NCBI GenBank assembly: GCA_012729765.1
Contig: JAAYCM010000090.1
Coordinates: forward strand, 1 to 64,000
Length of the DNA: 64,000 nucleotides
Origin: Chloroflexota bacterium
GTDB lineage: Bacteria; Chloroflexota; Anaerolineae; Aggregatilineales; Aggregatilineaceae
Reading direction: 5' to 3'
Every line of letters begins with the position of its first letter. Within the stretch, counting starts at the first letter, position 1. Of the stretch, positions 24,663-28,627 are shown piece by piece. The position numbers were made by a program, and so were the translations under genes. The notes beneath the pieces are model-generated. The model saw nothing but the letters and a program-made list of their open reading frames with translations. It had not been told where the DNA came from and made no database searches.

Positions 24663-24687
24663 TTAGAATAGCAACAGATTGTTCTAA
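24663..24687. promoter_or_regulatory. Inverted repeat just upstream of the strong promoter
   Basis: TTAGAA at 24663-24668 and TTCTAA at 24682-24687 are inverted arms, ending 15 bases before the -35 hexamer. The position suits an activator or repressor site. I cannot name the protein. Confidence 0.4.
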
Positions 24688-24702
24688 ACTTTGTAAAAAC
24701 AA

Positions 24703-24731
24703 TTGACAGCCCTGATGTTCTATGCCATAAT
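24703..24731 (+). promoter_or_regulatory. Strong sigma-70 type promoter
   Basis: Perfect -35 TTGACA (24703-24708), 17-base spacer and -10 CATAAT (24726-24731), predicting transcription start near A24738. It is the best promoter match I found in the window and feeds the hairpin-rich element immediately downstream. Confidence 0.8.
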
Positions 24732-24804
24732 CAGACTACGTTGTTCGGAAAAACAGAACAACCTCCTTCAACTTGCCATCCCAAGCAAAAAGGAGGTGGT
24801 GTCG

Positions 24805-24861
24805 ATGCATGATAGTAGTACCAAACGTGGCGTTGTGACACCCCTCCTTTCTGTGAAATAA
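24805..24861 (+). CDS. 18-residue small ORF in the structured RNA
   Basis: ATG with AAAGGAGGTG eight bases upstream (end of GGAGG to ATG) encodes MHDSSTKRGVVTPLLSVK and stops at TAA 24859-24861. Its coding sequence runs through the left arm of the 14-bp inverted repeat and the inner hairpin, so ribosomes on it would disrupt those folds. This suits a leader peptide that controls structure, or a free small protein. A second ATG at 24809 in another frame gives only nine codons. No homologue is recognised. Confidence 0.5.
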   Translation: MHDSSTKRGVVTPLLSVK

Positions 24862-24891
24862 CAGAAATCGGTGTCACAACGCCCAAAAAAC

Positions 24892-24922
24892 AAGGTCCCC
24901 TGCACGGGGACCTTACCTTTTC
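24892..24922 (+). terminator. Hairpin terminator at the end of the structured RNA
   Basis: AAGGTCCCC (24892-24900) and GGGGACCTT (24906-24914) form a perfect 9-bp stem around TGCAC, followed by ACCTTTTCT. The T-run is interrupted, so it may be partial. It lies 32 bases before the next gene's ATG. Confidence 0.65.
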
Positions 24923-24953: not shown

Positions 24954-25967
24954 ATGAACCCTTTACCCCTGGGCAAGCTTCCCGCCAAACTTCTCAGCGA
25001 GCTGTTCACGCTGCTGCCGGGCGGGCCGCGCGTGGTGCTGGGGCCGCGCACCGGCGAGGATGCCGCCGTGATCGACCTGGGCACGCGCTATCTCGTGCTG
25101 AAAACCGACCCGATTACCTTTGCCACTGAACAGATCGGCTGGTACGCCGTCCAGATCAACGCCAACGATATTGCGACCACTGGCGCGCAGCCGCTCTGGT
25201 TTCTCGCTACGATCCTGCTGCCGGAGCGCACCGCTACTGAGGAAATGGCGCGCGCGATCTTCACGCAGATCGCGGACGCCTGCCGCGAGATGAGCGTCGC
25301 CGTCGTGGGCGGGCATACCGAGATCACCGCCGGCCTCGACCGCCCGATTGTGGTGGGGTGCATGGTGGGTGAGGTGGCTAAGGACAAGTTGATCCGCACC
25401 GGCGGCGCGCAGCCCGGCGATCTGATTCTGCTGACCAAAGGCGCGCCGATCGAAGCCGCCAGCATTATCGCTCGCGAGAAGCGGGATGCGCTTGCCGGCC
25501 AGTTTTCGGCTGAAATGCTGGAGCACTGCGCTAACTTCCTGTACGATCCGGGGATCAGCGTGGTGCGGGATGCGCGAATTGCGGCGGAAGTAGGCGGCGT
25601 GACCTCGATGCACGATCCGACCGAGGGCGGCGTCCTGACGGCGCTGTGGGAACTGGCCGAGGCGAGCGGCTGTGCGCTGGAGGTCGATCTCTATGGCGAC
25701 CGGCAGCCCTGGCTGCCCGACGCGGTGGCGCTGTGTGCGGCGCTCCAGCTCGACCCGGCAGCGGCGATCGCATCCGGCGCGCTGCTGCTGACCGTGCGCC
25801 CCGACCGTTTGGCAGCTCTTCAGGCAGCTTACCGGCAGGCTAATATCCCCATTTTTCACCTCGGCCAGATCGCCGCCGGTGCGCCCGCTGTGCGCGACCG
25901 GACACGCGGCGTCTTGGCGCGGCCCCTGCGCGACGAGATCGCACGTCTGTTCGACTCCAACGATTAA
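24954..25967 (+). CDS. AIR synthase-related protein (HypE/SelD/ThiL superfamily)
   Basis: A 337-residue PurM-like ATP-binding protein. The N-terminal half has GEDAAVIDLGTRYLVLKTDPITFATEQIGWYAVQINANDIATTGAQPLWFLATILLP, with the conserved Asp residues that bind Mg-ATP, and VVGGHTEITAGLDRPIVVGCMVGE. The C-terminal half has MHDPTEGGVLTALWELAEASGCALEVD. It is closest in pattern to HypE-like 'hydrogenase expression/formation' homologues, but the C-terminal PRxC(I/V) tail of true HypE is absent. No hydrogenase genes are nearby, so the substrate is unknown. No clear ribosome-binding site precedes the ATG. The structured RNA lies directly upstream. Confidence 0.82.
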   Translation: MNPLPLGKLPAKLLSELFTLLPGGPRVVLGPRTGEDAAVIDLGTRYLVLKTDPITFATEQIGWYAVQINANDIATTGAQPLWFLATILLPERTATEEMARAIFTQIADACREMSVAVVGGHTEITAGLDRPIVVGCMVGEVAKDKLIRTGGAQPGDLILLTKGAPIEAASIIAREKRDALAGQFSAEMLEHCANFLYDPGISVVRDARIAAEVGGVTSMHDPTEGGVLTALWELAEASGCALEVDLYGDRQPWLPDAVALCAALQLDPAAAIASGALLLTVRPDRLAALQAAYRQANIPIFHLGQIAAGAPAVRDRTRGVLARPLRDEIARLFDSND

Positions 25968-26191: not shown

Positions 26192-28627
26192 ATGTTTCAA
26201 ATGGAGAATGTTAAGACTTTTGAGGAGGTGATGATATTCATCGTCCTCGCTACCGCCGGGGTGGCGCTCGCCTATGCCCTCTGGCTTCGCAACTATATCC
26301 TGGCTGCCGACAAAGGGACCCAGGAAATGCAGCGCATTTGGGGCTATATTCGTGACGGCGCGAACGCCTACCTGCGCACCCAGCTTCGGACGGTCGCCAT
26401 CCTGATCGCTGTGATCACGGTGGCGATGTTCCTGAGTGTGTTTGTGGTGGCGCCCACCCCTGAGGCGAATGAGTACTTTGATGGCAACGAAGATACCGCC
26501 CGGATCGTGATCGCGTTTGCGCGCGCGCTCGCGTTCGTGATGGGGGCGTCGTTCTCGGCGATGGTTGGCTTCTTCGGCATGAATATGGCCGTGCAGGGCA
26601 ACGTGCGCGTGGCGGCTGCTGCTGAGCGCGGCGGCTATCAGGAAGCGCTAAAGATCGCCTACCGTTCGGGCACGATCACCGGCATGCTGACCGATGGCCT
26701 CGGCCTGTTGGGCGGCACGCTGATCTTCATTATCTTCGGCAAGGCGTCACCCGATGTACTGCTCGGCTTCGGCTTCGGTGGTACGCTGCTGGCGCTGTTC
26801 ATGCGTGTGGGCGGCGGTATCTATACCAAGGCGGCGGACGTCGGCGCGGACCTGGTGGGTAAGGTCGAAGCGGGGATGGAAGAAGACGATCCTCGTAACG
26901 CGGCGGTAATCGCGGACCTGGTCGGCGATAATGTTGGCGACTGCGCGGGCATGGCCGCCGACATTTTTGAGTCCTACGAAGTGACGATTGTCTCCAGCCT
27001 GATCCTGGGCCTGGCTCTGACTGCGATCAATGGCGAGCTGTACTGGATCGTGCTGCCGCTGCTGGTCCGCGGCATCGGCGTTGTCAGCTCGATTGTCGGG
27101 ACCTATGCTGTGTCGCTCTGGAATGTAGACGACGCCGAAGAGGCGATGTACAAGAGCTACGAAGTGTCGAGCGGCATCACCATCATCTCGACCTTCCTTC
27201 TGGCGTGGCTGTATGCGGGCCAGTTGTCGCTCGCAACCCTGGTTGCTGTCGGCGTAGCGCTGGCTGTCGTCTTCAACCCGCTGACCTCGTATGCGACCAG
27301 CGCGAAGAGCGGACGCGTCCAGACTATCGCGGCTTCGACCCGTTTTGGTCCGGCTTCGGTGATCCTCGAAGGTCTGTCGCTGGGCTATCTGTCGAGCGTG
27401 TGGGCGCTGTTCGTGATCGTCGCCAGCCTTTCCGCGGCGATCCTGGTCTACAGCTTCGACTTCCCAGACGAGTATGAGTTGATCGCCGTTCTCGTCGGTG
27501 TCGGCCTCTCGCTGATCCAGATCGTGCGTGGCCAACTGCGCGGGCATCTGGTCGAGGGCTTCTTCTCGGCGCTGTGGATCATGGTCCTGGCGCTGTTCAT
27601 CGTCAGTATGCACGAAGTGCCGGAAATCCATCGCTACAGCTATGTGCTGTTCGGCGTGTCGCTGATTGGTGTCGGGATGCTTTCGCATACCGGCAACAAC
27701 GTCAGCATGGACACCTTTGGCCCGATCTCGGACAATGCCAACGGCATCGGTGAGCTGGCGGGCATGGGACCTGAGGCGCGCCAGATCATGGCCGACCTGG
27801 ACGCGGCGGGCAACACCACCAAGGCGATCACCAAGGGTGTCGCCATCGGCTCGGCTGTTATTGCGGCGGTGTCGCTGTTCGGCAGCTTCTTCACCGATAT
27901 CCAGCGCGTCAACCCCGACTTCGAGAAGGTGATCAACCTGGCCGACCCGACCGTTTTCGTCGGGATGCTGATCGGCGGCTCGCTGCCGCTGCTGTTCAGC
28001 GGCCTGCTGATCAAGGCCGTGAACCGCGCCGCTGGCCTGATCATGGCCGAGGTGCGCCGCCAGCTCCGTATTCCGGAAATCGCCAGCGGTGCGAAAACCC
28101 CGGACTATGCCAAGGCCGTGACGATCTCGACGCAGTCGGCCCAGATCGAGCTGATTCCGCTCGGCCTGATCGCTGTGCTGGCCCCGATCGCGGTCGGGCT
28201 GCTGCTCAAGGAACAGGCACTCGGCGGCTTCCTCGCCGGTGTGATCCTGACCGGGCAACTGCTGGCCGTGTTTATGTCGAACGCGGGTGGCGCCTGGGAC
28301 AACGCCAAGAAGCACGTCGAGGACGGCTACTTTGGTGGCAAGGGCAGTGAGAATCACAAGGCCAGCGTCGTAGGTGACACGGTTGGTGACCCGCTGAAGG
28401 ATACGGCTGGTCCGGCCCTGAACCCGATGATCAAGGTGATGAACCTGGTCGCGCTGATCATGGCCCCGATTGTAGTCGAGTACACCGGCTATGGCGCAGG
28501 CATTATCGTTGGTGCGGCGGTCGCAGTTGGCCTGATCATATGGGCTGTGCGCCGCAGCGACCGTGAAATCGTGATGGAAGAAAGCGTGGCAGTCGAGCGC
28601 GTGGACGCGGTGCCGGTTAAGGAATAG
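26192..28627 (+). CDS. hppA: Membrane-bound proton-translocating pyrophosphatase (K+-independent type)
   Basis: An 811-residue polytopic pump (about 16 membrane segments) that couples pyrophosphate hydrolysis to ion export. Signature loops are [47 protein letters not shown] and, near the C-terminus, [14 protein letters not shown] ... [28 protein letters not shown]. The diagnostic GNTTKA (Lys where K+-dependent enzymes have Ala) points to the K+-independent, H+-pumping class. The start at 26192 has AGGAGGGG 10 bases upstream. TTG 26156 and ATG 26201 are alternatives. The long leader may be regulatory. Confidence 0.95.

Follow-up and report, generated by a model that had tools for sequence, protein, structure and literature searches.

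A widespread single-copy element of Chloroflexota with a micro-ORF and two competing RNA pairings: a putative stand-alone attenuator-like mini-mRNA

The window analysed here is a 64,000-nucleotide stretch of the genome of a Chloroflexota bacterium of the family Aggregatilineaceae. It carries a compact element which, according to an original prediction made from the sequence, comprises a promoter, a 5' hairpin, a Shine-Dalgarno (SD) sequence, an ORF of 18 codons and a terminator, and all of these parts were indeed found at the places assigned to them (Table 1). The transcript would start at approximately 24738, a position derived from the promoter alone. The arms of regions 2 and 3 constitute the perfect 14-bp inverted repeat that had been described, and the hairpin that they form spans the end of the ORF. 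Two partners had been proposed for the SD, and both are present in the sequence; the downstream one, described as a 14-bp partner with one bulge, is counted here as 13 pairs with one bulged U. The upstream partner, ACCTCCTT, with which the SD is paired in the minimum-energy fold, is, however, not conserved as such in the family alignment, and what is conserved upstream is instead the box GCCATCC (region 0), which is able to pair back onto the SD. Region 1 would complement, over ~12 nt and with one G.U, the 3' tail that is usual for bacterial 16S RNA.

Table 1. Positions of the element's features and of the two following genes in the window
Feature	Positions	Strand	Basis or remark
Sigma-70-type promoter, TTGACA-17-CATAAT	24703-24731	+	Sequence
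TTGACA and CATAAT, spacer of 17 nt	24703-24708 and 24726-24731	+	Read from sequence
5' hairpin, GTTGTTC...GAACAAC	24741-24762	+	Sequence and fold; by the predicted transcript start
Window-specific upstream SD partner, ACCTCCTT	24761-24768	+	Minimum-energy fold
Region 0, conserved box GCCATCC	24775-24781	+	Local pairing with AGGAGGTG possible
Region 1, extended SD and spacer, AAAGGAGGTGGTGTC	24789-24803	+	Sequence, family alignment
Micro-ORF, MHDSSTKRGVVTPLLSVK, ATG...TAA, 18 codons	24805-24861	+	Sequence
Region 2, within the micro-ORF	24829-24849	+	Sequence, fold, pairing comparison
Region 2, 5' arm of the 14-bp hairpin	24829-24842	+	
Region 2, partner of region 1, GACACCCCTCCTT	24837-24849	+	
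Region 3, 3' arm past the stop codon, GGTGTCACAACGCC	24870-24883	+	Sequence, fold, covariation
Intrinsic terminator, AAGGTCCCC TGCAC GGGGACCTT ACCTTTT (stem and T-run)	24892-24921	+	Sequence, fold
AIR-synthase-like gene	24954-25967	Same as element	PF00586/PF02769
Membrane pyrophosphatase gene hppA	26192-28627		Conserved promoter-like GCGGTAAAAT and SD AGGAGGGGTAC upstream (family)

The element is real, and it is spread far more widely than the earlier reading of one sequence could tell. Homologues were found once each in 16 of the 18 genomes of the family; a second match in the window's own genome is the hairpin read in reverse, which leaves a single copy there. A covariance model based on the family identified the element in 196 of 396 genomes from the class Anaerolineae, most with one match each and with scores of up to 72 bits outside the family, where these counts, as those below, are of sequences and not of independent events. 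A repeat or mobile element is ruled out by the one copy in this genome and by the occurrence of mostly one per genome elsewhere. The predicted RNA fold of the window element has a z-score of -7.4, with none of 200 shuffles being as stable, and these values, combined with conservation in 16 of 18 family genomes, place the element beyond chance. A search at the level of the order produced convincing matches in just 18 of 154 genomes, and it is therefore probable that some of its families have lost the element.

Matches to a class-wide model, which has the minor flaw of including three weak opposite-strand rows, occur in 75 of 400 genomes of the phylum. When 84,980 named genomes were scanned for the sequence pattern, 83 stretches were returned, 74 of which belong to Chloroflexota (Anaerolineales, Caldilineales, Thermoflexales, Ardenticatenales and Roseilinea). 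The nine genomes from outside this phylum look like chance matches, since model R2 found nothing in them better than an E-value of 0.2; the same run produced values of 1e-12 to 1e-14 for three genomes from Chloroflexota. When the weak class-model matches in other Chloroflexota classes were read, they revealed a diverged form (AAGGAGGTGATGCCCATG...AGTAAGCGTATGGGTGTCACC...) built to the same plan. The model of this form, R3, matches 52 of 400 phylum genomes at E <= 0.001, among them the majority of the members sampled in some families, and none of 119 genomes of another phylum. The two weak matches that the class model gave among 119 other-phylum genomes proved, on reading, not to be the element.

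Conservation is uneven along the element. Both TTGACA and the AAGGAGGTGGTGT of region 1 are invariant in the family (16 of 16), and the box GCCATCYCA is conserved in its alignment, in which the terminator sequence is free to change. At the class level, G[CT][CTA]AT[CT][CTA] is present at box 0 in 109 of 116 members, an upstream promoter-like site (at least 10/12) in 97 of 116 (versus 2 of 116 when shuffled), and a terminator-like hairpin with a T-run within 75 nt in 88 of 116 (versus 6 when shuffled). Hairpins resembling that at the 5' end of the window element occur in other members, though with no conserved hairpin sequence. The statement that no described RNA family matches the element holds: Rfam 15 at its gathering scores returned nothing across the whole window, and a search of seven element loci at E-values of up to 1 returned no match on the element itself, the matches elsewhere in these loci being to 6S RNA, to tRNAs and weak ones due to chance. 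A search of the available literature likewise produced no paper on such an RNA in Chloroflexota.

Two mutually exclusive pairings, one between the SD and the ORF (1:2) and one between the ORF and the arm past the stop codon (2:3), are supported by sequence change of the compensatory kind that the original prediction had called for. For 2:3, 98.2% of cells in the family comparison are paired and four pairs have changed on both sides, which is reached by 1 of 500 shuffles; the window copy itself possesses U-A at a 2:3 position where its relatives hold C-G. All 116 class members retain 2:3 helices of 9-16 bp with no mismatch (G-U allowed) despite the change in sequence. The 1:2 pairing is invariant within the family, and such invariance says nothing on pairing. 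In the class, one base of the spacer varies (GTG[A/G]TG), and together with its partner it is A-T in 61 members, G-C in 38, G.T in 9 and A-C in 1, and since A-T and G-C both occur inside each of the families f42, f52, f58 and f11, this change happened more than once. Furthermore, a 1:2 duplex is stronger when its two strands are cognate than when they come from different families (-21.3 versus -18.7 kcal/mol), and in the one family genome (G007) where GACACCCCTCCTT has changed to GACACCACCCCTT, pairing with the SD is still possible, with the bulge moved. The 2:3 pairing is predicted to be the more stable of the two in 114 of 116 class members. In its hairpin, CCUCC is predicted to sit in an asymmetric internal bulge, and a small RNA that exposes CCUCCUU, as had been suggested, is possible.

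The comparison argues strongly for translation of the micro-ORF. All 16 family members possess it, with 18 codons (19 in two of them) and a TAA or TAG stop, and ORFs of 14-21 codons are present in 112 of 116 class members. The frame relative to region 2 is maintained throughout, except in three flagged members and one family. Across the class, the distance between the start codon and region 2 is 18, 21, 24 or 27, given the right start, with the exception of L199 (from G182, 77% complete, one contig), L207 and family f32. In three f32 genomes, whose start codon is GTG or ATG, region 2 lies in a different frame and encodes APRRHL and not AVASP; both pairings and the ORF length are kept despite this frame change. 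Micro-ORF stops in the class are TAG in 67 cases, TAA in 43 and TGA in 5, and TGA thus ends 5 of 115 micro-ORFs versus 297 of 670 (44%) long frames nearby, a bias for which the pairing role of the TAG G, as part of region 3, accounts only in part. TAG makes up 58% of these stops; the stop of the window copy lies at 24859-24861.

The peptide itself is weakly constrained, and differs widely among members. The dN/dS ratio is ~0.6 before region 2, ~1.4 within it and ~1.0 after it, and the difference between region 2 and the upstream part of the ORF indicates that region 2 is constrained as RNA. From the kept frame, the avoidance of TGA and the dN/dS values, it seems that translation which crosses region 2 and stops close to region 3 has been preserved more than the peptide. 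A peptide start of the form DSS.KR recurs across classes. Early serines of the micro-ORF are encoded by AGT in 168 of 206 cases class-wide (82%; the counterpart in the window is at 24814-24819), and such use of one codon points to a constraint at the nucleotide level. An approach by way of peptide families was dropped because so short a peptide is unsuited to profile searches and its conservation is weak.

Folding was modelled in stages from the predicted start in 90 members, all of it being prediction on naked RNA. Before region 2 is made, the SD is predicted to be paired upstream with a mean probability of 0.85, versus 0.66 with shuffled leaders, although a G-rich SD pairs easily; the 0:1 pairing exhibits no covariation, both of its sides being nearly invariant. 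Once region 2 is out, the SD pairs with it (P 0.84), and once region 3 is out this pairing falls to 0.02 and the SD is paired upstream again (P 0.85). The simple reading of an open SD in the full-length RNA was tested and failed: its mean unpaired probability is 0.14, a low predicted openness that arises because the SD folds back upstream, and 'released' therefore means moved to a weaker hairpin, not open. For the diverged form, 29 of 30 RNAs cut after region 2 are predicted to mask the SD. At 115 nt the model frees it in just 7 of 30, and release is thus less certain for this form.

With regard to the neighbouring genes, the next gene in the window had been called an orphan AIR-synthase-like gene. 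That likeness is confirmed, with the protein falling below all NCBIfam cut-offs for ThiL, HypE and SelD; however, six of the 16 element-bearing family genomes lack any AIR orthologue. The gene adjoins the element in the other ten and, in the window, starts ~30 nt past the terminator, which leaves no room for another promoter. AIR orthologues are present in 154 of 337 class genomes, mostly elsewhere, on a contig other than that of the element; in family f1, AIR was only found adjoining it. Adjacency is also observed in f2, f7, f12, f35 (3), f41 and one f52 genome, and by coordinates in f31. AIR is the main recurrent same-strand neighbour common to several families, approximately eight and a minority of lineages, and its proximity on the same strand leaves room for a cis role there. 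In one genome (G022), a 6S RNA above the Rfam gathering score lies just past the AIR gene (L078:211-389, minus strand); the window itself has no Rfam match to 6S RNA.

The next conserved gene in the family is hppA, with AIR sometimes between it and the element. A role as leader of hppA was rejected, the link being limited to family f1, where hppA has a promoter-like sequence and an SD of its own. The hppA SD region (AGGAGGGGT) is complementary to the ACCCCTCC of the element in most family members; pairing of the two in trans was also rejected, for G007 has lost most of it and kept the pairing with its own SD, and G006 carries a different hppA SD. A downstream ORF could be called at 98 class loci; its strand is that of the element in 47 of them and the opposite one in 51, and the combinations of upstream and downstream orientation are about equal (24, 23, 22 and 20). 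Together with mostly unconserved neighbours, these numbers argue against a cis-leader in general, and control of the next gene finds no support as a general rule. The comparison of genomes recovers a conserved unit with both pairings, a reading frame, a promoter and a terminator, and, judged by these loci, the element is a stand-alone unit without a fixed neighbour. An HNH-endonuclease-like gene, so annotated by eye from the sequence (loci L119-L218), is a recurrent convergent downstream neighbour in six families (f22, f26, f27, f33, f37 and f38).

We consider it fairly probable that the element is an independent small gene of ~190 bases for a stand-alone, attenuator-like mini-mRNA of ~185 nt, in which the SD is passed between partners and ribosome access is thereby timed. 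Four segments would compete, namely box 0, region 1 with the SD and spacer, region 2 within the micro-ORF and region 3 past the stop codon. Early in transcription, the SD may fold back weakly onto box 0, to be locked by the ~13 bp of 1:2 when region 2 emerges. Region 3 would then pair with region 2, starting at those of its bases that are free in 1:2, and the released SD would return to the weak 0:1 hairpin, which a 30S subunit could open. Ribosome access, and hence translation of the micro-ORF, would be timed against transcription and ribosome supply, and a ribosome on the micro-ORF would in turn govern the choice of pairing open to region 2. That folding in the cell follows this order, and that the switch acts on translation, is what we infer.

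Other explanations deserve to be weighed against this one. The element might be an attenuator acting in cis, in which a ribosome on the micro-ORF would decide whether polymerase passes the terminator and goes on to transcribe the AIR-like gene and then hppA. The short promoterless gap to AIR in the window, and the same arrangement in the ten family genomes and the other families named above, are as this would require, yet most members have another or a convergent downstream gene, six family members have the element without an AIR orthologue, class AIR orthologues lie mostly on a contig other than the element's, and the terminator and the switching regions have no sequence in common; we regard this explanation as quite unlikely. 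Transcription attenuation, as first proposed, is itself unlikely because the terminator is a separate hairpin whose sequence differs by family and of which region 3 is no part. Overall, the original interpretation is partly supported. It is also unlikely, in our view, that the element is a small mRNA made for the sake of its 14-19-residue peptide, with the RNA switch merely preventing untimely translation. The kept frame, the avoidance of TGA, the moderate constraint on the first codons (dN/dS ~0.6) and the recurrent DSS.KR start would all suit such an mRNA; wide variation of the peptide, a dN/dS of ~1.0 in its C-terminal part, the different peptide that f32 makes from the same RNA positions and the nucleotide-level constraint seen in the AGT serines do not.

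A type I toxin mRNA of the aapA3 or hok kind, in which metastable hairpins mask the SD, is suggested by the two successive anti-SD partners, in the 5' leader and inside the ORF, which are arranged as in aapA3 (PMC6733600). However, the peptides are not hydrophobic (the best 12-residue window has a mean of 0.45, with 2% of peptides above 1.6), and promoter scores on the opposite strand equal those of shuffles, with no enrichment of antisense promoters. Conservation of a single copy over a phylum is, moreover, unusual for type I toxins, and we give this explanation hardly any credence. Slightly less remote, but still very improbable, is a ribosome decoy or sensor, an RNA that would titrate or measure free 30S subunits. 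Region 1 complements almost the full length of the 16S 3' tail, which region 2 mimics; the extended SD AAGGAGGTGRTG is nearly invariant, and region 2 reads ATCACCTC(C) in most members. Any SD partner, however, must resemble the 16S tail, and the 1:2 pairing alone suffices to explain this mimicry.

For the mini-mRNA that we favour, we consider it more probable that the RNA acts in trans, by exposing regions 2 and 3 according to its state, than that the sequence of the peptide has a function. A broader proposal, towards which our doubt outweighs our confidence, is that the element is a novel type of single-copy regulatory RNA, a phylum-wide, free-standing translation switch without an attached gene that reports the state of the translation machinery via its own micro-ORF and acts in trans. 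If this were true, the state reported would be that of free 30S subunits, initiation or termination, and an attenuator would have become a gene in its own right, perhaps with a role in Chloroflexota as central as that of 6S RNA or tmRNA in other bacteria. Attenuators, like switches that mask an SD, are known to form part of the genes under their control. A single-copy version that runs from promoter to terminator, has no fixed gene and is kept across several classes, while the sequence diverges and the reading frame changes once, would imply a basic cellular role yet to be described. The results also supply a ready family model and clear mutants to make.

Of the systems compared, the aapA3/IsoA3 type I toxin mRNA of Helicobacter pylori, with its metastable hairpins MeSt1 and MeSt2, resembles the element, as predicted here, in the successive SD-masking hairpins formed during transcription, where the anti-SD lies first in the 5' leader and then in the ORF and where covariation backs both hairpins (PMC6733600). 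The element differs in its third segment past the stop codon, which takes region 2 away again, in having no visible 3'-end anti-SD lock, and in its short non-hydrophobic peptide (GRAVY mean -0.14, unlike the membrane type of such toxins), with no antisense RNA apparent from sequence. As in ribosome-dependent attenuators, a short ORF overlaps exclusive pairings; the fixed same-strand downstream operon of attenuators is absent (47 versus 51, with AIR in a minority), and the terminator, a separate hairpin of unrelated sequence in each lineage, is not among the alternative pairings. It seems, therefore, as far as these comparisons reach, that the element belongs neither to the aapA3-type toxins nor to the attenuators, given the lack of a hydrophobic peptide, of an enriched antisense promoter and of a fixed cis gene, and the separate terminator.

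The rnTrpL/peTrpL system of Sinorhizobium meliloti shares with the element a promoter, a leader ORF of <20 codons, exclusive pairings and a terminator, and its small RNA doubles as an mRNA able to act in trans (PMC7298713), as is proposed here for the element. In contrast, rnTrpL is derived from a leader that remains joined to trpE(G) (PMC7298713), whereas the element possesses no fixed downstream gene, no run of regulatory codons matching a pathway and no terminator among its alternatives. Its own promoter and terminator make it one small transcription unit, as expected of a dual-function small RNA on sequence grounds. SgrS and VcdRP (PMC4021124, PMC8672173) are also single-copy regulatory RNA genes of ~200 nt with a small ORF; they have known targets and a conserved peptide, and in the element it is the ORF that overlaps the switching segments. 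Finally, the yfr6 and Downstream-peptide RNAs of cyanobacteria (PMC2864571) are likewise independent small transcripts with a short ORF, discovered by comparative genomics. The conserved RNA of these is a 5' UTR, whereas the structure of the element runs through its ORF and past it.
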